Assembly: GCF_012927245.1 (NCBI RefSeq)
Contig: NZ_JABBGE010000011.1
Location: forward strand, 1-64,000
Source of the DNA: Streptomyces sp. R302
GTDB lineage: Bacteria; Actinomycetota; Actinomycetes; Streptomycetales; Streptomycetaceae
DNA: 64,000 nucleotides
Reading direction: 5' to 3'
Shown piece after piece: positions 4,295-33,883 of this stretch (position 1 is the first letter of the stretch; every line of letters starts with the position of its first letter). A program made the position numbers and the translations under genes. Under the pieces are notes generated by a model that worked only from the letters and a program-made list of their open reading frames with translations, did not search any database and was not told the DNA's origin.

Positions 4295-4310
4295 TGTGAC
4301 TCAGGTCACA
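4295..4310. promoter_or_regulatory. Crp-like palindrome between metalloprotease and tetR
   Basis: TGTGACTCAGGTCACA is a perfect 6-bp inverted repeat with a 4-bp spacer. It fits both TGTGA-N6-TCACA and the Streptomyces Crp consensus GTG-N6-GNCAC (established). It lies 125 bp upstream of the protease start and 104 bp upstream of the tetR start, so it could act on either. Binding is inferred only. Confidence 0.5.
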
Positions 4311-22945: not shown

Positions 22946-23040
22946 CCCCCCAGCACAGCAGAGCCCCCACCCCGCCTCCCCGAGCCACGCGGAACGGTAC
23001 GGCCTCCGGGCGGTACCCCTGACGGGCCGTCCGCCGGGAC

Positions 23041-23077
23041 GGGACCTAAGGCCGCCCGAGCAGCCGACCTAGGCCCG
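23041..23077. promoter_or_regulatory. Two DevR/DosR (OsdR)-like boxes upstream of narK
   Basis: GGGACCTAAGGCCG (23041-23054) and CCGACCTAGGCCCG (23064-23077) lie 23 bp apart, about 143-179 bp before the narK ATG. The first is identical at 12 of 14 positions to GGGACCTTGGGCCG upstream of pflB (24695). The pattern GGGACcNNNGgCC resembles the hypoxia-response box of DevR/DosR and its Streptomyces counterpart OsdR (established consensus GGGAC-centred palindrome). Two boxes spaced about two helical turns apart is normal for that regulator. Binding is inferred. Confidence 0.55.
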
Positions 23078-23146
23078 CCCCGCTCGCGACCATCGGCACT
23101 GATCACCCCCTGCCCCGAGGAGCAGCCTGGAAAGGCAAGGAAGAAG

Positions 23147-23214
23147 CCTCGAAAGGCCTCGAAGGGCCTCGAAGGGCCTCGAAAGGGCTTGAAAACGTCA
23201 GGGAAGTCAGGGAA
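23147..23214 (+). repeat. 10-bp tandem repeat array in the narK leader
   Basis: CCTCGAARGG is repeated four times head-to-tail (23147-23186), followed by a diverged fifth unit GCTTGAAAAC (23187-23196) and then two copies of GTCAGGGAA (23197-23205, 23206-23214), the last carrying the AGGGAA ribosome site 5 nt before the ATG. The 10-bp period equals one DNA turn. Slippage could change leader length in steps of 10. Confidence 0.8.
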
Positions 23215-23219
23215 GCGCC

Positions 23220-24641
23220 ATGAGTTCCGTAGTCCAGGGCAGCAGGGCCACGGGCGGGTCACCCGCCTCGTACGACACGGAGCAGTACCGTCCCGGCCAG
23301 GCCATCACCGACTGGGAGCCGGAGAACGAGCTCTTCTGGAAGGCGATCGGCGGGAAGGTCGCGAACCGCAACCTGTGGATCGCGGTCCCGGCGCTGCTCG
23401 TCGCCTTCGTCGTCTGGCAGGTCTGGTCGGTCACCGCCACCAACCTCGCGGACGTCGGCTTCACCTTCTCGACCTCGCAGCTCTTCTGGCTGACCGCCGT
23501 CCCCGGCCTGACCGGCGGCACCGCCCGGATCCTCTACACCTTCCTCGGCCCGATGATCGGCCAGCGGCGCTTCACCGCCCTGTCGACGGCCGTCCTCGTC
23601 GTGCCGCTGATCTGGCTCGGCATCGCGATCCAGGACCCGGCGACCCCGTACACGGTGATGGTCGTCATCGCCGCCCTCTGCGGCATCGGCGGCGCGAACT
23701 TCGCCTCCTCCCTCGCCAACATCGGCTTCTTCTTCCCGAAGGCGAAGAAGGGCAGCGCGACCGGCATCAACGGCGGACTCGGCAACCTCGGCGTCTCCGT
23801 CGTCCAGCTCCTCACCCCGATCGTCATCACCTGGTCGACGATCGCGATCGGCTCCGCCCAGCACAAGGCCGACGGCACCCCCGTGTACCTCCAGAACGCC
23901 GCCTTCGTCTGGGTCCCCGTCATCCTCGCCCTGGCCGCCGTCGCGTGGTTCGGACAGAACGACCTCAAGGTCGCCTCCACCCCGTTCAAGCAGCAGAAGG
24001 TCATCTTCACGCGCAAGCACAACTGGCTGATGACCTGGCTGTACGTCGGCACCTTCGGCTCCTTCATCGGCTTCGCCGCCGCCCTGCCGATGCTGATCAA
24101 GACCACCTTCCCGGACTACTCGGTCGCCACCTACGCCTGGATGGGCCCCGCCGTGGGCGCGCTCGCCCGCTGGGCCGGCGGCTGGATCGCGGACAAGTGG
24201 GGCGGAGCCCGGGTCACCATCCTCTCCTTCGTCGGCATGGCCCTCTCGATCGTCGGCGTCATCGACTTCCTGCCGTCGGGCGGTGACGGCGGCGACTTCT
24301 ACGGTTTCTTCTTCTGCTTCCTCGCCGCGTTCTTCTTCTCCGGCATCGGCAACGGCTCCACCTTCCGCCAGATCCCGGTCATCTTCCGCGGCACCCACCT
24401 GAAGGGCCTCGCCGAAGGCACCCCCGAACACGCCAGGGCCCTCAAGCAGGCCGAAATGGAATCGGGCGCCGTCACCGGCTTCACCTCCGCGACAGCCGCC
24501 TACGGATTCTTCTTCATCCCGGCGCTCTTCGGCTCGGTCGCCGTCACCAGCGCCATGTGGGGCTTCGTCGCCTTCTACGCCAGCTGCACGGTCGTGACCT
24601 GGTGGTTCTACGCCCGCAAGGGCGCCGAGGCGCCCAGCTAG
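23220..24641 (+). CDS. narK: NarK-type nitrate/nitrite transporter
   Basis: A 473-residue, about 12-TM MFS protein of the nitrate/nitrite porter family. Signature glycine-rich helices GIGGANFASSLANIGFFFP and GINGGLGNLGVSVVQ and conserved arginines (GTARILYTF, NGSTFRQIP) define the NarK substrate path. It exchanges or imports nitrate and exports nitrite across the membrane. The leader holds a tandem repeat and an AGGGAA site; DevR-like boxes lie further upstream. A terminator follows at 24655. Its closeness to the molybdoenzyme at 29 kb suggests a nitrate link, but no narGHJI is in the window. Confidence 0.92.
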   Translation: MSSVVQGSRATGGSPASYDTEQYRPGQAITDWEPENELFWKAIGGKVANRNLWIAVPALLVAFVVWQVWSVTATNLADVGFTFSTSQLFWLTAVPGLTGGTARILYTFLGPMIGQRRFTALSTAVLVVPLIWLGIAIQDPATPYTVMVVIAALCGIGGANFASSLANIGFFFPKAKKGSATGINGGLGNLGVSVVQLLTPIVITWSTIAIGSAQHKADGTPVYLQNAAFVWVPVILALAAVAWFGQNDLKVASTPFKQQKVIFTRKHNWLMTWLYVGTFGSFIGFAAALPMLIKTTFPDYSVATYAWMGPAVGALARWAGGWIADKWGGARVTILSFVGMALSIVGVIDFLPSGGDGGDFYGFFFCFLAAFFFSGIGNGSTFRQIPVIFRGTHLKGLAEGTPEHARALKQAEMESGAVTGFTSATAAYGFFFIPALFGSVAVTSAMWGFVAFYASCTVVTWWFYARKGAEAPS

Positions 24642-24654
24642 ACCACGTCTCCGA

Positions 24655-24680
24655 AGGGCCCCGCCGCGGCGGGGCCCTTT
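24655..24680 (+). terminator. Hairpin terminator after narK
   Basis: AAGGGCCCGCCG (24655-24666) pairs with CGGCGGGGCCCTT (24667-24679) with one bulged G, followed by T. It separates narK from the pflB promoter region. Confidence 0.75.
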
Positions 24681-24694
24681 CGCATGCCCGGAAC

Positions 24695-24708
24695 GGGACC
24701 TTGGGCCG
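24695..24708. promoter_or_regulatory. DevR/DosR (OsdR)-like box upstream of pflB
   Basis: GGGACCTTGGGCCG matches the narK-upstream element GGGACCTAAGGCCG except at two central bases. It lies 62 bp before the leader ORF at 24757 and 114 bp before pflB. Sharing of this unusual element by two anaerobic-metabolism genes is the main evidence for common control. Confidence 0.55.
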
Positions 24709-24756
24709 TCGGAAGGTGACCATTGCCGCCCGAAACGATCGATCAGAAGGAGTGGA

Positions 24757-24828
24757 ATGAAGGCAGCCAACGACGCGATCGAACGAATCGAAGAAGGCGG
24801 TGCGGGAAGTGACGGCGACCCCTGCTGA
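24757..24828 (+). CDS. Short leader ORF (23 codons) overlapping the pflB start
   Basis: ATG at 24757 is preceded by AAGGAG (24747-24752) at 5-nt spacing, by far the best ribosome site in the region. The peptide begins [15 protein letters not shown] and ends in DPC before TGA at 24826-24828. It overlaps the pflB GTG (24809) in another frame by 20 bp. The likely role is translational coupling, with ribosomes ending here re-initiating on pflB, which has a weak site of its own. A genuine small protein is the alternative. Confidence 0.45.
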
Positions 24829-27079
24829 GACCACGGTGACCGAGCGGGCCTGGAAGGGCTTCAAGGGCGGACTCTGGCGCGACGCCATCGACGTCCGCGA
24901 CTTCATCCAGCGGAACTACACCCCGTACGAGGGCGACGGCTCCTTCCTCGCGGGCCCCACCGAGCGGACCACCGCCGTCTGGCGGGCGCTCACGGACAAG
25001 TTCCCCGAGGAGCGCGCCAAGGGCGTGTACGACGTCGCGTACGACATCCCCTCCACCATCACCGCCCACGCCCCCGGGTACATCGACCGCGACAAGGACC
25101 TGATCGTCGGCCTCCAGACCGACGCCCCGCTCAAGCGGGCGATCATGCCCTACGGCGGCTGGCGCATGGTCGCCGGCGCCCTGGAGACCTACGGCTACCC
25201 GGTCTCCGCGGACCTCGAGAAGGTCTTCACCGCATACCGCAAGACCCACAACGCCGGCGTCTTCGACGCCTACACCCCCGAGATCCGCGCCGCCCGCAAG
25301 GCCGGCATCGTCACCGGCCTCCCGGACGCCTACGGCCGCGGCCGCATCATCGGCGACTACCGCCGCGTCGCCCTCTACGGCGTCGACCGCCTCATCGAGG
25401 CCAAGAAGGAGGAGAAGGCCGAACTCGACGTCCTCCCGGCCGGCCACCGCTCCCTGGAGGAGACCATCCGGCTCCGCGAGGAGCTGTCCGAGCAGCTCCG
25501 CGCCCTCGGCGAACTGAAGGCCATGGCCGCCTCGTACGGCCACGACGTCTCCGGCCCCGCCACCACCGGCCGCGAGGCGATCCAGTGGCTGTACTTCGCC
25601 TACCTGGCCGCCGTGAAGGAGCAGAACGGCGCCGCGATGTCCCTCGGCCGCACCTCCACCTTCGTCGACGTCTACCTCCAGCGCGACATCGAGGCGGGCC
25701 TCCTCACCGAGGAGCAGGCCCAGGAACTCGTCGACGACTTCATCATCAAGCTCCGCATCGTCCGCTTCCTGCGCACCCCCGAGTACGACGAGCTGTTCTC
25801 CGGCGACCCGACCTGGGTCACCGAGTCCCTCGCCGGCATCGGCGAGGACGGCCGCCCGCTCGTCACGAAGACGTCCTTCCGCTACCTCCAGACCCTCTAC
25901 AACCTCGGCCCGGCCCCCGAGCCCAACATGACCGTCTTCTGGTCGCCGCGACTGCCGCAGGGCTTCAAGGAGTTCTGCGCGAAGGTCTCCATCGACACCT
26001 CGTCCGTGCAGTACGAGTCCGACGAGCTGATGCGCCCGCGCTTCGGCGACGACACCGCCATCGCCTGCTGCGTCTCCGCGATGCCCGTCGGCAAGCAGAT
26101 GCAGTTCTTCGGCGCCCGCGTGAACCTCGCCAAGACCCTCCTGTACGCGATCAACGGCGGCCGCGACGAGAAGTCCGGCGCCCAGGTCGGCCCCGCCACC
26201 GGCGCCCTCACCTCCGAGGTCCTCGACTACGACGAGGTCATGGCCAGGTTCGACGAGCAGATGGAGTGGCTCGCGAACGTCTACGTCCACGCGCTCAACG
26301 TCATCCACTACATGCACGACAAGTACGCGTACGAGCGGATCGAGATGGCCCTCCACGACCGCGACGTCCGCCGCACCATGGCCTGCGGCATCGCCGGCCT
26401 CTCCGTCGCCGCCGACTCCCTCGCCGCCATCAAGTACGCCAAGGTCACCCCCGTACGCGACGAGACCGGCCTCGCCACCGACTACCTGATCGACGGAGAC
26501 CACCCGGCCTACGGCAACAACGACGAACGGGCCGACGAGATCGCCGTCCGGCTCGTCGAGGAGTTCATGAGGAAGGTGCGCAAGCACCCCACCTACCGGA
26601 ACGCCGAGCACACCCAGTCCGTCCTCACCATCACCTCGAACGTCGTCTACGGCAAGAAGACCGGCAACACCCCCGACGGCCGCCGCGCCGGCGAACCGTT
26701 CTCCCCGGGCGCCAACCCGATGAACGGCCGCGACACCCACGGCTACGTCGCCTCCGCCCTGTCGGTCGCCAAGCTGCCGTACGAGGACGCCGAGGACGGC
26801 ATCTCGCTCACCAGCACCGTCACCCCCGACGGCCTCGGCCGCACCCCCGAGGAGCGGATCAGGAACCTCGCCGGCGTCCTCGACGGCTACATGGCGAGCG
26901 ACGGCTTCCACATGAACGTCAACGTCCTCGACCGCGACGTCCTCATGGACGCCATGGAGCACCCCGAGAACCACCCTCAGCTCACCATCCGCGTCTCCGG
27001 CTACGCGGTCAACTTCGTCCGCCTGACGCGCGAACAGCAACTCGACGTCCTGAACCGCACCTTCCACGGCGCGCTGTAG
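24809..27079 (+). CDS. pflB: Pyruvate formate-lyase (formate C-acetyltransferase)
   Basis: A 756-residue glycyl-radical enzyme converting pyruvate and CoA to acetyl-CoA and formate. The catalytic cysteine pair lies in [11 protein letters not shown] (about 420-421) and the radical glycine in [13 protein letters not shown] near the C-terminus (about Gly731). YGGWRMV and [12 protein letters not shown] are further PFL-specific stretches, and length matches E. coli PflB. GTG at 24809 was chosen; GTG at 24800 is an in-frame alternative. pflA follows 10 bp later. Because the radical is destroyed by oxygen, presence in a strictly aerobic lineage implies a role under oxygen limitation (inference). Confidence 0.93.
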
Positions 27080-27089
27080 AGGTCCCGCC

Positions 27090-27926
27090 ATGGCCACGCT
27101 TCTCCCTCCGGACATCCCGGCCCGTCCCGCCGCGCAGAGCCGTCCCGCCGCCCCGGTCCGGGCCGTCACGCCGGCCGCCGCCGCGACCCACCGTCCGTCC
27201 GAGGGCTCGGTGCACTCCTGGGACCTCTCCACCGGTGTCGACGGGCCCGGCACCCGCTTCGTCACCTTCCTCTCCGGCTGCCCGCTGACCTGCCTCTACT
27301 GCCACAACCCCGACACGTGGCGGATGCGGAACGGGAAGCGGACCTCCGCCGACGACGTGATCGCCGAGGCGTCCAAGTACGTCCGCTTCATCTCCGCCTC
27401 CGGGGGCGGCGCCACCGTCTCCGGCGGCGAACCGCTCCTCCAGCCCGTCTTCACCGGCGAGCTGCTGCACCGCATGAAGCACGAGCTGGGCCTGCACACC
27501 GCCCTCGACACCTCCGGATTCCTCGGCGCCCGCGCCACCGACGCCCTGCTGCGCGACACCGACCTCGTCCTCCTCGACATCAAGTCCTGGGACCCGGACA
27601 CCTACCGGAAGGTCACCGGCCGGCCGCTGAAGCCGACCCTGGACTTCGCCCGGCGCCTCGCCGAGCTCGGCCAGGACGTGCACGTCCGGTACGTCCTCGT
27701 CCCCGGCCTCACCGACGACCCCGCCGACGTCGAGGGCGTCGCCGCCTTCGCCGGCGGCCTCGGCAACGTCTCCCGCGTCGACGTCCTCCCCTTCCACAAG
27801 CTGGGCGAGGCCAAGTGGCAGGCCCTCGGCATGCCCTTCACCCTCCACGACACCCCGTCGCCCACCCCGGAGCAGATGGCGGCCGTCCGCGAGGTCTTCC
27901 GGAGCCACGGTCTGTACGCGGTCTGA
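27090..27926 (+). CDS. pflA: Pyruvate formate-lyase activating enzyme (radical SAM)
   Basis: A 278-residue radical-SAM protein that installs the glycyl radical on PflB. The CxxxCxxC cluster motif is in SGCPLTCLYCHNPDTW (Cys64, Cys68, Cys71), followed by the SAM-binding GGGATVSGGEPLLQ and the DTSGFL and DIKSWDP elements usual for PflA. About 35 extra N-terminal residues, Ala/Pro-rich, precede the conserved core that starts at SVHSWDLSTGVDGPGTR. It sits 10 bp downstream of pflB, so they are cotranscribed; a hairpin at 27952 ends the unit. Confidence 0.93.
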   Translation: MATLLPPDIPARPAAQSRPAAPVRAVTPAAAATHRPSEGSVHSWDLSTGVDGPGTRFVTFLSGCPLTCLYCHNPDTWRMRNGKRTSADDVIAEASKYVRFISASGGGATVSGGEPLLQPVFTGELLHRMKHELGLHTALDTSGFLGARATDALLRDTDLVLLDIKSWDPDTYRKVTGRPLKPTLDFARRLAELGQDVHVRYVLVPGLTDDPADVEGVAAFAGGLGNVSRVDVLPFHKLGEAKWQALGMPFTLHDTPSPTPEQMAAVREVFRSHGLYAV

Positions 27927-27951
27927 CGCCCGCCCCGCCTCCCCTCCCAGA

Positions 27952-27982
27952 GCCCGGCGACACGTTCACTCGCGCGCCGGGC
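27952..27982 (+). terminator. Hairpin between pflA and the molybdoenzyme operon
   Basis: GCCCGGCG (27952-27959) and CGCCGGGC (27975-27982) form a perfect 8-bp stem with a 15-nt loop. It lies 26 bp after the pflA stop and 41 bp before the next GTG, so some readthrough into the downstream operon is possible. Confidence 0.55.
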
Positions 27983-28022
27983 ATAACGGGCTCAAAGGGT
28001 ACATACGTCCTACCGTGGCCCC

Positions 28023-29147
28023 GTGACCGAGCCACCCCAGACCGCCGAGCCCACCGCTCCCGAGCCGGAGGCTCCCGCCCCGGTCCCGGACGGCCACGCG
28101 CACCGGACCCCCGCCGCCGTCCGCCGACGCGCACTCCTCGCCGGCACCGCCGTCTCCACCCTCCTGATCCTCGCGATCGTCTTCGGCAGCCGGCTGCTCC
28201 GCGACTTCGACTCGGCCCTGCTGCCCTATGCCGTCGCCACCGTCTTCCTCGCCTTCGGCGTCGCCTACCGCTACACCGTCTGGATCTCCGCCCCCGGCGC
28301 CAGGCGCCTCTTCCGCCAGGGCTGGCGCTCCTTCTTCTCCGCGGCCAACTTCCGCAAGGCGCCCACCGCCCTGCCGAGGATGATCGCCACCTATCTCGGC
28401 TTCCAGAAGTTCCTCGGCGCCCGCTCGCACGCCCGCTGGGCCGCTCACCAGCTCCTCTTCTGGGGCTGCGTCCTCGCCGCGCTCATCACCTTCCCCCTCA
28501 CCTGGGGCTGGTTCACCTTCACGTCGGGCACCGGCGACGGCCCCGGCTACGAGATGCGGATCTGGGGCTTCAAGGTCCTCGGCTTCGACTCGCTGAACAT
28601 CCTCGGCTGGCTCATGTTCCACGGCCTGGACATCGCCGCCGTCCTCGTCATCGCCGGCGCCTCCTTCTTCCTGTGGCGGCGCATGAAGGACCGCGGCGCC
28701 ATCACCGGCCAGCGCTTCGCCTACGACCTGATCCCGCTGATCGCCCTCGTCGTCATCTCGGTCACCGGCCTGCTGCTCACCTTCTCCTCGATCTTCCTGC
28801 ACGGCGGCGGCTACGAGTTCCTGGCCGTCCTCCACATGGTCTCGGTCGTCTTCACCCTCATCTACATCCCCTTCGGGAAGTTCTTCCACATCGTCCAGCG
28901 GCCCGCCGCCGTCGGCATGCAGCTCTTCAAGTACACCTCCCGCCGCAAGGACGGCGCCGCCGAGGAACTCCAGGCCTGCCGCCGCTGCCACGAGCCCATC
29001 GACACCCCCGACTACGTCGAGAACCTCCGCGGCACCATGAGGGACCTGAAGCTCGACTTCGACGAATGGGCCGAGTACTGCCCGCGCTGCAAACGCGTCC
29101 TCCGCGGCAACGCCTACCTCACCCACGTCAAGAAGGGTTTCCAGTAA
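28023..29147 (+). CDS. NarI-like membrane cytochrome b subunit with Cys-rich C-terminus
   Basis: A 374-residue membrane protein, first gene of a five-gene set. After a Pro/Glu-rich leader there are about six hydrophobic helices. Histidines within them (His142, His200, and His271/His289 in VLHMVSVVFTLIYIPFGKFFH) match the bis-His heme b pattern of NarI/HdrE/DsrM quinone-linked cytochromes. The tail has CRRCH (319-323) and CPRC (353-356), either a zinc ribbon or, if exported, a CxxCH heme c site. I see no MFS motif, although length and helices could mislead automated annotation. It would pass electrons between quinone and the molybdoenzyme (inference). The stop abuts the next GTG. Confidence 0.7.
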   Translation: MTEPPQTAEPTAPEPEAPAPVPDGHAHRTPAAVRRRALLAGTAVSTLLILAIVFGSRLLRDFDSALLPYAVATVFLAFGVAYRYTVWISAPGARRLFRQGWRSFFSAANFRKAPTALPRMIATYLGFQKFLGARSHARWAAHQLLFWGCVLAALITFPLTWGWFTFTSGTGDGPGYEMRIWGFKVLGFDSLNILGWLMFHGLDIAAVLVIAGASFFLWRRMKDRGAITGQRFAYDLIPLIALVVISVTGLLLTFSSIFLHGGGYEFLAVLHMVSVVFTLIYIPFGKFFHIVQRPAAVGMQLFKYTSRRKDGAAEELQACRRCHEPIDTPDYVENLRGTMRDLKLDFDEWAEYCPRCKRVLRGNAYLTHVKKGFQ

Positions 29148-31460
29148 GTGACCGCGACCGACCCGTCCCGTGCGCTGCCGCTCGATCCGTCCGTCGCCCC
29201 GCCCGGGACGCGGAACTTCCGGGACGCCGGGGGGATCCCCGCCGACCGGTGGCACGCCGACCAGAACGGGGAGACGCTCGTCCCCACCCACTGCTGCTTC
29301 TGCGGGGTGCAGTGCGGCATGTACCTGCGGGTCGACCGCGGAGGCAAGGTGTTCGGGGTGGAGCCCCGGAACCACGACATCAACCGGATGCGGCTCTGCC
29401 CCAAGGGCATCAACGCCTACCAGCAGGTCAACCACCCCGACCGGCTGACGTCGCCGCTGATGCGGCGCAACCGGGACGAGGAGTTCCGGCCGGTCGGCTG
29501 GGAGGAGGCGCTCGACCACACCGTCGCCGAGATCCGCCGCATCCAGGGCGAGTACGGCAACGACGCCTTCGGCCTGCTCGGCGGGGCCAGCCTCTACTCC
29601 GAGAAGACGTACCTCGTCGGGAAGTTCGCGCGGGTCGCGCTCAGGACCAGGCACGTCGACTACAACGGGCGCCTCTGCATGGTCTCCGCCGCCGGCGCCA
29701 ACAAGCTCGCCTTCGGCATCGACCGCGCCGGGAACCCCTTCTCCGACATCCTCCTCACCGACTGCCTCCTCATCGCCGGCTCCAACGTCGGCGAGTGCTT
29801 CCCGGTGATGACCCAGTACCTGTGGGGCGCCCGCGACCGGGGTGCCTCGCTGATCGTGGTGGACCCGCGGCAGACCGCCATCGCGCGCACCGCCGACGTC
29901 CACGTCGCCCTCAAGCCGGGGACCGACTCGGCGTTCTTCAACGCCGTGCTGCACGTCATCGTCGCCGAGGGGCTCACCGACGAGGCGTACCTCGCCGCGC
30001 ACACCACCGGCTGGGAGGAGGTCAAGAAGACCGTCGCCGACTACCCGCCCTCCCGGTCCGCCGCGATCTGCGGCGTCCCCGAGGAGCAGATCGTGCAGGT
30101 CGCCCGGATGTTCGCGGGCGCGGGCAGGGCCATGGCCTGGCACGCCCGGGGCGTCGAGCACCACTCGCAGGGCGTCGAGAACTGCCTCACCATCATCAAC
30201 CTCTGCGTCGCCACCGGGAACATCGGCAGGCCCGGTGCCGGCTACGGCACCATCACCGGGCAGGGCAACGGGCAGGGCGGCCGCGAGCACGGCCAGAAGT
30301 CCGACCTCCTCCCCGGCGGCCGCTCCATCTCCAACCCCGAGCACCGGCGGCAGATCTGCGAGATCTGGGGCATCGAGGAGTCCGAACTCCCGCCCGCCGG
30401 CACCTCCATGATGGAGATGGTCTGGCAGATGCAGCGCGCGGAGATCCGCGGCCTCATCGGCATCTGCAACAACCCCTTCGTCTCCCTCCCGAACTACGCC
30501 ACGGTCAAGGAGGGGTACGACGCCCTCCAGTTCCACGCCCAGTTCGACTTCTTCCTCTCCGAGACCGCCGCCAACGCCCACGTCGTCTTCCCCGTCACCG
30601 TCTGGGCCGAGGACGAGGGCGTCATGGCCAACGCCGAGGCCCGCGTCGTCAAGCACAACAAGGCCCAGGAGCCCCCGGCCGGGGTCCGCACCGACACCTG
30701 GGTGATGTGCGAGCTCGCCAAGCGGCTCGGCGCCGGCGACAAGTTCGCCTTCCCCGACTCCCGCTCCGTCTTCGACGAGCTGCGGATCGCCTCCGCCGGC
30801 ACCGTCAACGACTACTACGGCATCACCTACGAGCGCCTGGAGGAGACCGGCGGCATCGCCTGGCCCTGCCCGACCACCGACCACCCCGGCACCCCCCGCC
30901 TCTTCGAGGACGGCCGCACCTACCACTCCGACGGCAGGATCCACATGCAGGTCGTCGAGTGGCACCCGCCGATGGACCCGTACAGCGAGGAGTTCCCGCT
31001 CTCGCTCACCACCGGCCGGACCGTCGCCCACTTCCTGTCCGGGAACCAGACCCGCCGGCTCGGCGCGCTCGTCGAGCAGACGCCCCGGCCCTGGGTGGAG
31101 GTCCACCCCTCGCACGGCTTCCGCAACGGCGACCCGGTACGCGTCGTCACCCGGCGCGGCAGCGAGGTCTTCCCCGCCCTCGTCACCGAGGCCATCCGCC
31201 CCGACACCGTCTTCGTCCCCTACCACTGGCCGGTCCCCACCGCCGCGAACGCGCTCACCATCGACGCCCTCGACCCCCGCTCGAAGATCCCCGAGTACAA
31301 GGTCTGCGCGGCCCGCATCGAGGCCGCCGAACGCGTCGACGAGGTCCCCGCGCCGCCGACCGCCCCCGGGCAGCCCGCCTACCCCGAGACGCAGGTCTCC
31401 CGCACCGACCCCCTGCCCCCCACGTCCCCGCAGGGCCGTGGCACCGCGGAGAGGAGCTGA
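29148..31460 (+). CDS. Molybdopterin-bis-PGD oxidoreductase, Nap/Nas-like catalytic subunit
   Basis: A 770-residue cytoplasmic member of the DMSO-reductase superfamily. The N-terminal [4Fe-4S] motif is THCCFCGVQCGMY with LCPKG (Cys49, 52, 56, 84). The probable Mo ligand is Cys177 in NGRLCMVSAAG, the C-M-x-S-A context seen in NapA/NasC nitrate reductases. LLIAGSNVGECFP and TGQGNGQGGREHGQK bind the pterin. There is no Tat signal. Formate dehydrogenase-type C/U-H-S/G is absent, so nitrate-like oxyanion reduction is favoured over formate oxidation, but the substrate is unproven. It is translated directly after the cytochrome gene (0-bp gap). Confidence 0.85.
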   Translation: MTATDPSRALPLDPSVAPPGTRNFRDAGGIPADRWHADQNGETLVPTHCCFCGVQCGMYLRVDRGGKVFGVEPRNHDINRMRLCPKGINAYQQVNHPDRLTSPLMRRNRDEEFRPVGWEEALDHTVAEIRRIQGEYGNDAFGLLGGASLYSEKTYLVGKFARVALRTRHVDYNGRLCMVSAAGANKLAFGIDRAGNPFSDILLTDCLLIAGSNVGECFPVMTQYLWGARDRGASLIVVDPRQTAIARTADVHVALKPGTDSAFFNAVLHVIVAEGLTDEAYLAAHTTGWEEVKKTVADYPPSRSAAICGVPEEQIVQVARMFAGAGRAMAWHARGVEHHSQGVENCLTIINLCVATGNIGRPGAGYGTITGQGNGQGGREHGQKSDLLPGGRSISNPEHRRQICEIWGIEESELPPAGTSMMEMVWQMQRAEIRGLIGICNNPFVSLPNYATVKEGYDALQFHAQFDFFLSETAANAHVVFPVTVWAEDEGVMANAEARVVKHNKAQEPPAGVRTDTWVMCELAKRLGAGDKFAFPDSRSVFDELRIASAGTVNDYYGITYERLEETGGIAWPCPTTDHPGTPRLFEDGRTYHSDGRIHMQVVEWHPPMDPYSEEFPLSLTTGRTVAHFLSGNQTRRLGALVEQTPRPWVEVHPSHGFRNGDPVRVVTRRGSEVFPALVTEAIRPDTVFVPYHWPVPTAANALTIDALDPRSKIPEYKVCAARIEAAERVDEVPAPPTAPGQPAYPETQVSRTDPLPPTSPQGRGTAERS

Positions 31461-31466
31461 CCGCAC

Positions 31467-32066
31467 ATGATGGGCCGCACGATCTTCATCGACCCGGGCC
31501 GCTGCATCGGCTGCCAGGCCTGCGTCTCCGCCTGCCGCGAATGCGACTCGCACCGCGGCAAGTCGATGATCCACCTCGACTACCCCGACGAAGGCCACTC
31601 CGTCGCCTCCCTTCCCACCGTCTGCATGCACTGCGAGGACCCCGTCGCCCCCTGCGCCGAGGTCTGCCCCGCCGACGCGATCCTGGTGACCGCCGACGGC
31701 GTGGTGCAGCAGGCCGACACCACCCGCTGCATCGGCTGCGCCAACTGCGTCAACGCCTGCCCCTTCGGCGTCCCGAAGATCGACCTCCAGGCCAAGCTGC
31801 AGATGAAGTGCAACCTCTGCTACGACCGCACCGCCTACGGCCTCGCCCCGATGTGCGCGACCGTCTGCCCCACCGGCGCCCTCTTCTACGGCACCCTCGA
31901 CGAACTGCGCGCCGAGCGCCCCGGCGTCCAGGTCGCCGACTCCTTCACCTTCGGCTCCACGACCGTCACCACCGGTGTGGCGATGGTCGTCCCCGCCGAC
32001 AAGGTCCAGTGGCCCGTGCCCGGCGGTCTGCCGGTCGTCGAGATCAACGGAAGGGACGTCCGATGA
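31467..32066 (+). CDS. Four-cluster [4Fe-4S] electron-transfer subunit
   Basis: A 199-residue ferredoxin-like protein of the DmsB/NrfC/FdnH type. Four Cys groups are visible: CIGCQACVSAC (from Cys13), CMHCEDPVAPCAEVCP, CIGCANCVNACP, and CNLCYDRTAYGLAPMCATVCP, enough for four cubane clusters. It would wire the molybdenum subunit to the membrane cytochrome. GAGGAG at 31451-31456 precedes the ATG at 31467 (an ATG three bases later is possible). It overlaps the Rieske gene by 4 bp. Confidence 0.9.
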   Translation: MMGRTIFIDPGRCIGCQACVSACRECDSHRGKSMIHLDYPDEGHSVASLPTVCMHCEDPVAPCAEVCPADAILVTADGVVQQADTTRCIGCANCVNACPFGVPKIDLQAKLQMKCNLCYDRTAYGLAPMCATVCPTGALFYGTLDELRAERPGVQVADSFTFGSTTVTTGVAMVVPADKVQWPVPGGLPVVEINGRDVR

Positions 32067-32716
32067 GCGTCACCGACCCGCAGCCGCCCGCGCCGGACGC
32101 CGGCGCCGACGCGGCGCAGGAGGCGCTCCGCGACCGGATCGCCGCCGACTCCCTCACCACCCGCCGCGACTACCTGCGGATCGTCGCCACCGTCTCCGGC
32201 GGTCTCGCGGTCGGCGGCGTCGCCGTCGCCTCCGGCATCCTGCACCGGCACGGCGACCCCGACGGCACCCCCGAGGTGAAGAGGATCGCCGACGCGATCC
32301 TGCCCGGGGAGTCCCTCGCCTTCCGCTACCCGGGCGACGAGGACCGGGCGATCGCCGTCCGCATGGACGACGGCACCCTCGCCGGCTACTCCGCCGTCTG
32401 CACCCACCTGGCCTGCGCCGTCCTGTGGCGCAAGGACCGGGGCAGCGAGGGCGAGCTGTACTGCCCCTGCCACGAGGGTGTCTTCGACGCCCGTACGGGA
32501 GAGGTGACGGCCGGCCCGCCGCCGCGCGGGCTCCCGAAGGTGATCCTGGTCGAGCAGGTCGACGGCAGCGTCTGGGCCATCGGCACCGCCCGCTCGGGGG
32601 AGAGCCTCCAGGAGGGCTACTGCCGCCAGCGCGGCGCCGGCACCCCGCCCTGCGAGGCCCTCAAGGGCGGCGCCCCCGCCGGCCGGCCCGGCACCGAGAG
32701 GAGCGAGCGCGCATGA
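32063..32716 (+). CDS. Tat-targeted Rieske [2Fe-2S] protein
   Basis: A 217-residue protein. A twin-arginine segment TTRRDYLRI (Arg34-Arg35) precedes a hydrophobic anchor (41-60). The Rieske domain has CTHLACAV (ligands Cys113, His115; Cys118) and CPCHEGVFD (ligands Cys134, His137; Cys136), including the disulfide pair, so a high-potential Rieske centre facing outside is expected. A Rieske subunit joined to a Nap/Nas-type molybdoenzyme, a dicluster-type ferredoxin and a NarI-like cytochrome is not a complex I recognise. It overlaps neighbours by 4 bp on both sides, implying tight stoichiometry. Confidence 0.9.
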   Translation: MSVTDPQPPAPDAGADAAQEALRDRIAADSLTTRRDYLRIVATVSGGLAVGGVAVASGILHRHGDPDGTPEVKRIADAILPGESLAFRYPGDEDRAIAVRMDDGTLAGYSAVCTHLACAVLWRKDRGSEGELYCPCHEGVFDARTGEVTAGPPPRGLPKVILVEQVDGSVWAIGTARSGESLQEGYCRQRGAGTPPCEALKGGAPAGRPGTERSERA

Positions 32717-33084
32717 CGACCGAGAACCCGCTCCCGGAGCGCCCCGCGTACCACCCGGGCAGCGCGCAGCCGCGGCTGAACCGTCCGGTGCACGAGCGCT
32801 ATCCGCAGATCCGGCCCACGAGCGGGTACGGCGACCCGCGGATCCGGCACACGGGGCCGGGCCCGGGGGCGGGCACGGAGCAGGAACCGGAGCGCTCCTC
32901 GAAGCTGTCGGCGCGGCTGGCGCTGGCGCTCACGGTGGTGATCGGCCAGCTGTGGGGGCTGACCATCGTGGTGGACGAGTGGATGTCCGGCGACACCGGC
33001 ACGGCCTGGTGGGGCGCGGGATTCCTCGTCCTGTCGTTCCTGGTGGTCCTCGGCCTGTGGGCGCTGGACCCGAAGGACCGGTGA
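32713..33084 (+). CDS. Small two-helix membrane protein of the molybdoenzyme operon
   Basis: A 123-residue protein with a Pro-rich cytoplasmic N-terminus of about 65 residues and two C-terminal hydrophobic helices (LALALTVVIGQLWGLTIVV and WGAGFLVLSFLVVLGLWAL). The ATG overlaps the Rieske stop by 4 bp. No cofactor motif is visible. Its fixed place suggests an assembly or anchoring subunit of the complex (inference from position). Confidence 0.75.
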   Translation: MTTENPLPERPAYHPGSAQPRLNRPVHERYPQIRPTSGYGDPRIRHTGPGPGAGTEQEPERSSKLSARLALALTVVIGQLWGLTIVVDEWMSGDTGTAWWGAGFLVLSFLVVLGLWALDPKDR

Positions 33085-33156
33085 GGGGAGGGCAGGCCGT
33101 CAGGGTGCCGGTGATCGGGCCGGTCAGGGGCGGGGGAGCGGGCGTACCCTGAAGAC

Positions 33157-33375
33157 ATGAGCACCGCCCCCGCCCACGGACCGCGAGACGCGAAGCCGAA
33201 CGGCATTCGGTCGAATTCCCAGACCCCTCCGAAGCCGGTGATCGTCTTCGACGATCCGCTGGACACGCAGTCCGCGGACGACACGGACCGCGGGTGGGGC
33301 GAGCGGCCTCCGGCCGGCGGCGCCGCCGCCGACCTCGCGCGCTTCCTCGACGAGAAGCCGCCGCACCACCTCTGA
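33157..33375 (+). CDS. Small conserved hypothetical protein, leaderless
   Basis: A 72-residue hydrophilic protein with VIVFDDPLDTQSAD in the middle and a C-terminal DLARFLDEKPPHHL. TACCCT at 33145-33150 stands exactly 6 nt before the ATG with no ribosome site, the geometry of a leaderless transcript. Codon usage is normal for the region. It converges on mscL with a 19-bp gap containing a short hairpin (CCGGAG/CTCCGG, 33378-33394). Function unknown. Confidence 0.6.
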   Translation: MSTAPAHGPRDAKPNGIRSNSQTPPKPVIVFDDPLDTQSADDTDRGWGERPPAGGAAADLARFLDEKPPHHL

Positions 33376-33394
33376 CGCCGGAGCGTCCCTCCGG

Positions 33395-33883
33395 TCAGGA
33401 GGTGGAGTGCGTCCCCTTGCCGCTGCTGGGCCCGCGCTGCGAGATGAGGTGGTCGCGGATCTCCTTGAGCACCTCCAGCTCGCTGACCTCCAGGACCTCC
33501 TCCACACCCTCCTTCGCCTTGTCGTGCGCGGCACGCCTGGCGAGGACCTTGGCCATCGGCAGCACCATCAGGAAGTAGACGACGGCCGCGGTGATGAGGA
33601 AGCTGAGGACCGCGCTGAGGACGGTGCCCCACATGATCGGGATGCCGGTGACCACGTTGCCGGCGTCGTCGATCTGGCAGGGGCCCTTGAGACAGGACCG
33701 GTAGCTCTCCAGGTCCTTGGTGCCGAAGGCACCCACCAGCGGGTTGATGACTCCCTTGACCACCGAGTTCACGATGTTGGTGAACGCGGCACCGATGACG
33801 ACCGCCACCGCGAGGTCGATCACGTTCCCGCGCATCAGGAAGGCCTTGAAGCCCTCCATCACGCTTTCCTTCTTCTCGGCCAC
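33395..33883 (-). CDS. mscL: Large-conductance mechanosensitive channel
   Basis: A 162-residue inner-membrane channel that opens on hypo-osmotic shock. EGFKAFLMRGNVIDLAVAVV is the MscL N-terminal helix/TM1 motif, and IGAAFTNIVNSVVKGVINPL contains the pore constriction. A periplasmic loop with one Cys pair (SCLKGPC), TM2 and a charged C-terminal helical bundle (LEVLKEIRDHL) follow. The start is the GTG at 33883 with AAAGG 7 nt upstream; an in-frame TTG lies one codon further out. Confidence 0.93.
   Translation of the reverse strand: MAEKKESVMEGFKAFLMRGNVIDLAVAVVIGAAFTNIVNSVVKGVINPLVGAFGTKDLESYRSCLKGPCQIDDAGNVVTGIPIMWGTVLSAVLSFLITAAVVYFLMVLPMAKVLARRAAHDKAKEGVEEVLEVSELEVLKEIRDHLISQRGPSSGKGTHSTS

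Follow-up and report, generated by a model that had tools for sequence, protein, structure and literature searches.

A conserved five-gene set of Streptomyces that probably encodes a membrane-bound nitrate reductase with a Nas-type catalytic subunit and a Rieske protein

The DNA analyzed here is a stretch of 64,000 nucleotides from Streptomyces sp. R302 (contig NZ_JABBGE010000011.1, positions 1 to 64,000; referred to as the window). At positions 28023–33084 it carries five genes, for a membrane cytochrome, a molybdenum (Mo) catalytic subunit, an iron-sulfur (FeS) protein, a Rieske protein and a small membrane protein of family DUF6755. The results suggest that their product is probably a nitrate reductase bound to the membrane, functioning in the manner of NarGHI but assembled from other parts. 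We read it as a quinol-linked nitrate reductase able to stand in for NarGHJI.

The gene set and its conservation

When verifying the reading frames, we found all five on the plus strand with junctions of 0, +6, −4 and −4 bp, in agreement with the first-pass annotation of this DNA, which had described tightly packed genes with gaps of 0–6 bp or 4-bp overlaps. The positions of the genes, of selected residues and of linked neighbours are given in Table 1.

Table 1. Features of the five-gene set and of linked genes in the window.
Feature	Position	Strand	Basis or remark
Membrane subunit, six-helix NarI/EtfD-like cytochrome b candidate with C-terminal four-Cys site	28023..29147	+	Conserved His and Cys; model
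Proposed inner haem b ligand His142 (with His289), codon	28446..28448	+	27/27; pairing by analogy with NarI
Proposed outer haem b ligand His200 (with His271), codon	28620..28622	+	25/27
Proposed outer haem b ligand His271, codon	28833..28835	+	27/27; 18 residues before His289
Proposed inner haem b ligand His289, codon	28887..28889	+	27/27
Catalytic subunit, Mo-bis(pyranopterin guanosine dinucleotide) and one [4Fe-4S], Nas/Nap-type nitrate reductase	29148..31460	+	NasC model; own clade
Mo ligand Cys177 and Met178, codons	29676..29681	+	Aligned with Sec140-His141 of E. coli FdhF
4x[4Fe-4S] electron-transfer subunit, DmsB/FdhB/NrfC-like	31467..32066	+	Cys count; Fer4_11 and others
Twin-arginine bc-type Rieske [2Fe-2S] subunit	32063..32716	+	PF00355; solved-chain matches; motifs
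Twin-arginine codons of the Rieske Tat signal (R34-R35)	32162..32167	+	Invariant in 23/23 aligned
Small two-helix membrane protein DUF6755	32713..33084	+	PF20540; two hydrophobic segments
Pyruvate formate-lyase activase, linked neighbour, not a subunit	27090..27926	+	TIGR02493 above cut-off
Pyruvate formate-lyase (PFL), linked neighbour, not a subunit	24800..27079	+	TIGR01255 above cut-off
NarK-type nitrate/nitrite transporter, linked neighbour	23220..24641	+	TIGR00886, 308 bits (cut-off 311.7)

In the seven long Streptomyces loci examined first, the five genes were always present in order, and both genes for PFL and its activase were present in four. The comparison was then made with the best 80 of at least 455 relatives, all streptomycete (one is titled [Kitasatospora] papulosa); 67 of these loci have at least 6 kb of flank on each side and are called well-flanked. 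All five genes occurred in the same order in 66 of the 67. The exception (L167) gave no matches to the last three subunits and contains a partial activase.

The set extends far beyond the genus. Among 396 genomes across the phylum, the Rieske protein was matched at an E value of 1e-20 or better in 23, representing 15 of 236 genera. Outside the genus there were 21 such places in 20 genomes, and 20 places from 19 genomes, all of other actinobacterial classes, were examined (G618 was left out); these are called deep loci. Matches to the catalytic, FeS and Rieske subunits were found in all 20, with the first four genes in the same order in 19; the remaining locus (L071) begins inside the catalytic gene at a contig end. 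The fifth gene was detected in 13 of the deep loci by tblastn and in two more (L087 and L089) by Pfam, and it lies 1.7 kb off in L077. An independent set of Pfam matches to DUF6755 came from seven of 296 genomes and eight places, one of them the window, and all adjoin the same genes. Outside Actinomycetota, where plasmid records only were searched, the cytochrome subunit was found on four, all of Deinococcus; the two examined carry all five genes and an adjacent NarK gene. The linkage of the five genes is thus far beyond chance.

A Rieske protein unconnected with the other subunits had been named as one of the findings that would speak against a common enzyme. The Rieske gene occurs in every examined locus not cut by a contig end, except streptomycete L167; that complete loci so rarely lack it speaks for a genuine subunit.

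The catalytic subunit, its neighbours and the most likely substrate

The catalytic subunit of the window has 770 amino acids and the Pfam domains Molybdopterin, Molydop_binding and Fe4S4. The model that matched it best was NasC (764.7 bits, under the cut-off of 1100). The models for the formate dehydrogenase (FDH) alpha subunit (567.7 bits; cut-off 666.25), AioA (139.1 bits; cut-off 359.05) and NarG (TIGR01580, 21.4 bits; cut-off 1084) scored lower, and none reached its cut-off.

In a tree of 52 Mo enzymes (a quick build with several long outgroup branches), 24 catalytic subunits of five-gene sets formed one clade with SH-aLRT support of 99. This clade adjoins, and does not lie inside, a clade of 13 actinobacterial NasA-type enzymes that are 42–48% identical to the window protein, and both stand on the Nas/Nap side of the tree, apart from the FDHs. 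The sister rows include L010–L014, L017, L019, L022, L025 and L028–L030, with L016, L020 and L027 omitted; the five-gene rows omitted are L031, L032, L035, L038, L071, L074 and L082, and 15 rows of other systems come from plasmids, E. coli and the window genome. The sister-clade enzyme of the window genome (L039) likewise had NasC as its best model, with 824 bits under the same cut-off. It was the sole member of its clade whose neighbours were scanned, and the three genes scanned are unrelated, with no membrane, FeS or Rieske partner among them.

The sister clade is presumably that of SCO2473 NasA. In one paper, SCO2473 is termed a putative nitrate reductase (PMC10704036). The SCO2473-type NasA/NasC enzymes of actinobacteria share the active-site residues of the five-gene catalytic subunit, whereas the latter adjoins membrane, FeS and Rieske genes in 66 of the 67 well-flanked loci of streptomycetes and in 19 of the 20 deep ones, and not a soluble partner such as ferredoxin, NirBD or a flavoprotein.

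The active-site residues were compared in an alignment with FdhF. Cys177 of the window protein stands in a C-M-V-S-A context, and the Cys-Met pair was found in all 24 five-gene rows, as was a Thr at the position of FdhF Arg333. The same combination of Cys-Met and Thr occurs in the NapA rows, in two proteobacterial NasA rows, in L040 and in the 13 sister rows; an annotated nitrate reductase of Deinococcus aetherius has neither pattern (Cys-Thr and Asn). No twin-arginine signal was found at the N-terminus of the window catalytic subunit. A loose RR pattern is present in four of 29 homologous N-termini (L034, L035, L077 and L082), where a hydrophobic stretch behind it was not evident by eye. Both the C-M-x-S-A context and the lack of an export signal had been noticed in the first-pass annotation, and both hold.

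The genes around the deep loci were then considered. A gene of the HPP family follows the set in ten of the 20 (L071, L072, L073, L076, L082–L085, L087 and L089), with PF04982 above cut-off in all ten, and no NarK-family gene was found at these loci. NarK-family genes lie near seven deep loci and encode eight proteins. A nitrate/nitrite transporter model is the best NCBIfam match of each of these eight proteins, and TIGR00886 ranks first or second for every one; it is above cut-off only in L079. It looks as if the HPP and NarK transporter types substitute for one another near the set. HPP proteins include nitrite transporters, according to a paper citing Maeda 2014 (PMC8774688). An HPP gene is likewise part of a Deinococcus nitrate reductase cluster that is of another type. 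NirA-type genes were found near three deep loci, identified by Pfam at L077 and L080 and through similarity at L081; NarK is also present at one of the three. Altogether, neighbours of NarK, HPP or NirA type occur at 19 of the 20 deep loci, and the exception (L074) is cut by a contig end. In the 67 well-flanked streptomycete loci, NarK was found near the set in 35, PFL in 35 and the activase in 40, partial remnants counted.

Because the clade position, the active-site residues and the NarK, HPP and NirA neighbours all point to it, nitrate is the best supported and, judged from these sequences, the most likely substrate. The earlier view that formate or another oxyanion was as good a candidate as nitrate is thus not sustained: the active-site residues and the neighbours favour nitrate, and the PFL gene is missing in 32 of the 67 loci.

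Another open reading frame of the window genome has a related domain: L040 (contig C23, 2325–6686) is a single frame of 1454 residues in which a Nas-like Mo domain is fused to a CysJ-like flavoprotein, and it is a candidate for a self-contained NAD(P)H nitrate reductase.

The membrane cytochrome, the Rieske protein and the proposed electron path

The cytochrome subunit has six hydrophobic segments, which form long helices in the predicted model (pLDDT 79). Among 27 homologues, His142, His271 and His289 are kept in all, and His200 in 25. The haem ligands His187 and His205 of NarI are likewise 18 residues apart, and by analogy we propose that His142 and His289 would form the inner and His200 and His271 the outer haem b pair. 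In structural comparisons of the model, the best row was Mycobacterium smegmatis EtfD (Z 10.1 over 221 residues, 4.2 Å), and E. coli NarI gave Z values of 9.4–9.9 over 171–179 residues at 5.2–5.4 Å. Among the matches listed, the closest relative of the cytochrome gene is that of S. roseolus JCM 4411 (96%).

The four cysteines Cys319, Cys322, Cys353 and Cys356 are present in 27 of 27 homologues. They make up a C-terminal C-x2-C...C-x2-C domain (codons 28977–29090) predicted to lie on the inner side of the membrane subunit, possibly a zinc ribbon or a rubredoxin-like site contacting the FeS subunit. A haem c at the CxxCH sequence of this subunit was considered and rejected: although the four Cys are invariant, the His is present in only three of the 27. 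Public Deinococcus records label the cytochrome subunit 'MFS transporter' (L170 11917–13029 and L171 9917–11029), likely a misannotation.

Of 29 homologues of the FeS subunit, 28 contain 17 or 18 Cys, sufficient for four [4Fe-4S] clusters; in the exception (L082), the catalytic and FeS genes are each split over two frames. All 28 actinobacterial Rieske proteins have the twin Arg, the C-x-H-L-x-C and C-P-C-H boxes and both disulfide Cys, and the same features are found in the two Deinococcus proteins. The GPP loop is present in all 23 aligned proteins, actinobacterial and the two from Deinococcus (23 of 30 available). The initial description of a 4x[4Fe-4S] protein and of a twin-arginine Rieske protein with both ligand pairs is therefore borne out. 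The fifth protein matches DUF6755 narrowly (PF20540, 27.3 bits; cut-off 27); no mention of this name was found in the literature searched. The further proposal, that the genes encode one conserved multi-gene membrane molybdoenzyme with a Nas/Nap-type subunit inside and a Rieske protein outside, is also supported.

If the five proteins form one complex, the NarI-like cytochrome would oxidize menaquinol on its outer side, and two haems b would carry the electrons across the membrane to the 4x[4Fe-4S] subunit in the cytoplasm. From there they would pass to the [4Fe-4S] cluster and the Mo centre of the Nas-type subunit, where cytoplasmic nitrate would be reduced to nitrite; nitrate and nitrite would be moved by NarK or the HPP-family protein. 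The Rieske protein would be exported folded via Tat, remain anchored by its signal helix and occupy the outer end of the complex, where quinol is bound or electrons enter; DUF6755 might hold it in place.

The Rieske protein may have one of several roles. By analogy with haloarchaeal Nar, one option is that it takes up quinol electrons first, in a split resembling a Q-cycle. A second option, with a precedent in Nar1 of S. coelicolor, is that it provides entry for electrons from the bcc-aa3 chain, and a third is a structural or regulatory part. A more elaborate form of the first option, which we regard as tentative and rather unlikely, is that the enzyme runs a Q-cycle of its own: menaquinol would be oxidized at an outer Qo-like site, one electron going through the Rieske protein to bcc-aa3 and the other through the haems b to cytoplasmic nitrate. 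If so, a single enzyme would split electrons between oxygen and nitrate. A link of the enzyme to the bcc-aa3 chain is possible. Streptomycete Nar1 (S. coelicolor) is reported to depend on the high-potential bcc-aa3 chain (PMC7931247). The five-gene set makes the connection between nitrate reduction and bcc-aa3 in streptomycetes directly testable.

Comparison with known systems shows which parts are shared. The recognized classes of nitrate reductase are Nar, Nap, Nas and archaeal pNar. Parts of the five-gene set that have a counterpart in NarGHI are the cytoplasmic Mo subunit, the four-cluster FeS subunit, the NarK neighbour and, as a candidate, the membrane cytochrome b, in which His residues lie close to each face. 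The set seems to replace NarGHI in many Streptomyces. Unlike NarGHI, the set has a catalytic subunit of Nas type rather than NarG (21 bits), a Rieske protein and DUF6755 in addition, no NarJ that we could see, and a cytochrome without a Pfam NarI match. Nar1 is a NarGHI-type enzyme that is not known to have a Rieske subunit of its own.

In the haloarchaeal pNar operon, narB encodes a Rieske protein and narC a cytochrome b alongside the nitrate reductase genes narGH, a combination similar to that of the set. Its catalytic subunit is exported and its cytochrome is of bc1 type. The catalytic subunit of pNar is NarG-type, whereas that of the set is Nas-type, cytoplasmic and accompanied by a NarI/EtfD-like cytochrome; the features of pNar were not found in the window set, as judged from the NarG score, the lack of a Pfam cytochrome match and the lack of a Tat signal on the catalytic subunit. 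Q-cycle coupling has been suggested for pNar (PMC2483277).

QmoC, TmcC, HmcE and EtfD resemble the cytochrome subunit by weak profile matches and, for EtfD, the best structural row; their partners and substrates differ from those of the set. In a 2025 NapA phylogeny, a Rieske protein is among the accepted operon partners and a twin-arginine catalytic subunit is required, and because of this requirement that phylogeny would exclude the five-gene enzyme (PMC12769810). The Gaiella occulta genome has narK (Gocc_2854–Gocc_2859 region) next to Gocc_2855–2859, called narGHIJ in the genome description (PMC6741124); these genes may be the five-gene set under another name.

No description of such an enzyme was found among the literature matches listed (titles and abstract openings; few subscription journals), in line with the earlier statement that no enzyme of this composition has been characterized. 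If our reading is correct, the combination of a Nas-type subunit, a quinol-linked membrane module and a Rieske protein represents a further nitrate reductase architecture, found in deep actinobacterial lineages, on Deinococcus plasmids and, by its cytochrome, in about a quarter of the Streptomyces sampled. Name-based surveys for narG, napA or nas would miss it because public labels differ; the catalytic subunit is named 'molybdopterin oxidoreductase family protein' in the public Deinococcus records.

Role in Streptomyces, alternative explanations and flanking sequence

The co-occurrence of the set with NarG and PFL was analyzed in 199 Streptomyces genomes, with the cytochrome subunit taken as the marker of the set. 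The cytochrome was present in 49 genomes and NarG in 66 (65 above cut-off; G017 has a split NarG below it). NarG was found in six of the 49 cytochrome genomes and in 60 of the 150 others (12% vs 40%; Fisher p = 2.2e-4, kinship of the genomes ignored), and the window genome has no NarG above cut-off. PFL was present in 62 genomes. It was enriched with NarG (32 of 66 vs 30 of 133; p = 3.1e-4, kinship ignored) and lay within 60 kb of narG in nine of the 32 genomes holding both. Its enrichment with the set was not significant (19 of 49 vs 43 of 150; p = 0.21), and adjacency alone was striking, PFL being at most 8 kb from the cytochrome gene in 17 of the 19 genomes holding both. We read these results as one low-oxygen module in which the nitrate reductase is either NarGHJI or the five-gene enzyme.

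Several observations weigh against a NarGHI-like nitrate reductase. The proposal is based on sequence, models and genome comparison. The NasC score of the catalytic subunit is below cut-off, and seven of the eight NarK-like proteins of the deep loci are under the NarK cut-off. A Pfam search of the cytochrome subunit gave no family match, and its NCBIfam matches to QmoC, TmcC and HmcE are weak and far under cut-off. A Z value of about 10 is under the safe range for helical bundles: a G protein-coupled receptor gave Z 9.5 over 85 residues, and rank 9 and ranks 11 and beyond of the structural comparison were unrelated helical proteins, mostly receptors. The Foldseek search with the cytochrome model gave no row at E ≤0.001, and a sequence search of solved structures gave rows only at E 0.63 to 0.99. 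The original designation 'NarI-like' is thus supported only in part, by a low-scoring structural likeness to NarI and EtfD that no sequence family match above cut-off accompanies. The proposed outer-haem ligand His200 is replaced by Arg in two homologues (L072 and L083). Finally, the Fisher tests treat the cytochrome as a proxy for the set and take no account of kinship, and NarG and the cytochrome coexist in six genomes.

The alternative that survives best keeps the same membrane nitrate reductase and assigns it to assimilation or redox disposal, as a quinol-linked supply of nitrite for NirA or NirBD. The assimilatory kinship of the catalytic subunit and the NirA-type genes near L077, L080 and L081 are consistent with this. 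However, the window genome also encodes another NasA-type enzyme (L039) and has genes with NIR_SIR domains elsewhere, to our knowledge Nas systems need no membrane and Rieske partners of this kind, and the PFL linkage and the avoidance of NarG fit a respiratory role. We therefore consider an assimilatory function unlikely.

It is very unlikely that the enzyme reduces another oxyanion (chlorate, selenate or iodate) with nitrate being incidental. Relatives in the Mo enzyme superfamily use many oxyanions, and the clade is separate from characterized enzymes, but the neighbours of NarK, HPP or NirA type at nearly all deep loci, and NarK at about half of the streptomycete loci, speak for nitrate.

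An FDH that oxidizes the formate from the neighbouring PFL and passes electrons to quinone would be in line with PFL and its activase upstream in the window; the best-scoring solved relatives of the catalytic subunit are FDHs, and the Fdh-alpha model gave 567.7 bits. This candidate was nevertheless rejected as highly improbable. In all 24 five-gene rows, the positions of the FDH His and Arg are occupied by Met and Thr, whereas Arg is kept in seven of seven FDH- or YdeP-type rows. The absent His alone is weak evidence, because ForC-type FDHs carry Gln at this position, according to one report (PMC8808070), but the Pantoea ForC-type row still keeps the Arg. In addition, PFL is absent at many loci, including the two from Deinococcus, which list NarK and no PFL. 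Partial activase matches without PFL were found before intact sets in four streptomycete loci (L124, L149, L159 and L165; near 7.3–7.9 kb). PFL has probably been lost more than once near the set, and because loci without PFL retain the set, the enzyme does not depend on formate to function. At a further locus (L160), a nearly full-length activase is retained without PFL.

The arsenite oxidase AioAB pairs a Mo enzyme with a Tat-exported Rieske protein and is not known to have a cytochrome b or a four-cluster FeS subunit. Operation in the oxidizing direction, as in this enzyme, from Mo through FeS, haem and Rieske to the bcc-aa3 chain, is consistent with the match of the Rieske subunit to AioB (1e-7) but deserves hardly any credence, as the Rieske subunit is closer to the bc-complex proteins among solved chains (1.8e-12), AioA is another family (139 bits vs 765 for NasC on the window protein), the active site is of nitrate reductase type, and a Rieske centre would be an energetically unfavourable acceptor for electrons from nitrite oxidation, whose potential is near +0.42 V.

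The flanking sequence was also inspected. The NarK-type protein of the window matched PRK15034 (NarU) with 440 bits (cut-off 836). No Rex-like site was found close to the genes, the single match, with two mismatches, being at 4295; an OsdR/DevR-like pattern matched twice where 9.5 matches were expected, once at 23041, which is upstream of NarK; and a scan of 23000–33600 found no sigma-70-type promoter. A 23-codon open reading frame with a good ribosome-binding sequence (24758–24826) overlaps the annotated PFL start. A leader frame of this kind was found in two of 35 upstream regions by a narrow pattern, and among 34 relatives only L090 has a similar one. Between the NarK and PFL genes there is a GC-rich hairpin followed by just three T, which was not among the predictions of a terminator scan; given this hairpin, NarK and PFL may belong to separate transcription units. 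Immediately 5' of NarK lies a tandem repeat of about five copies of a 10-base unit (23124–23194).

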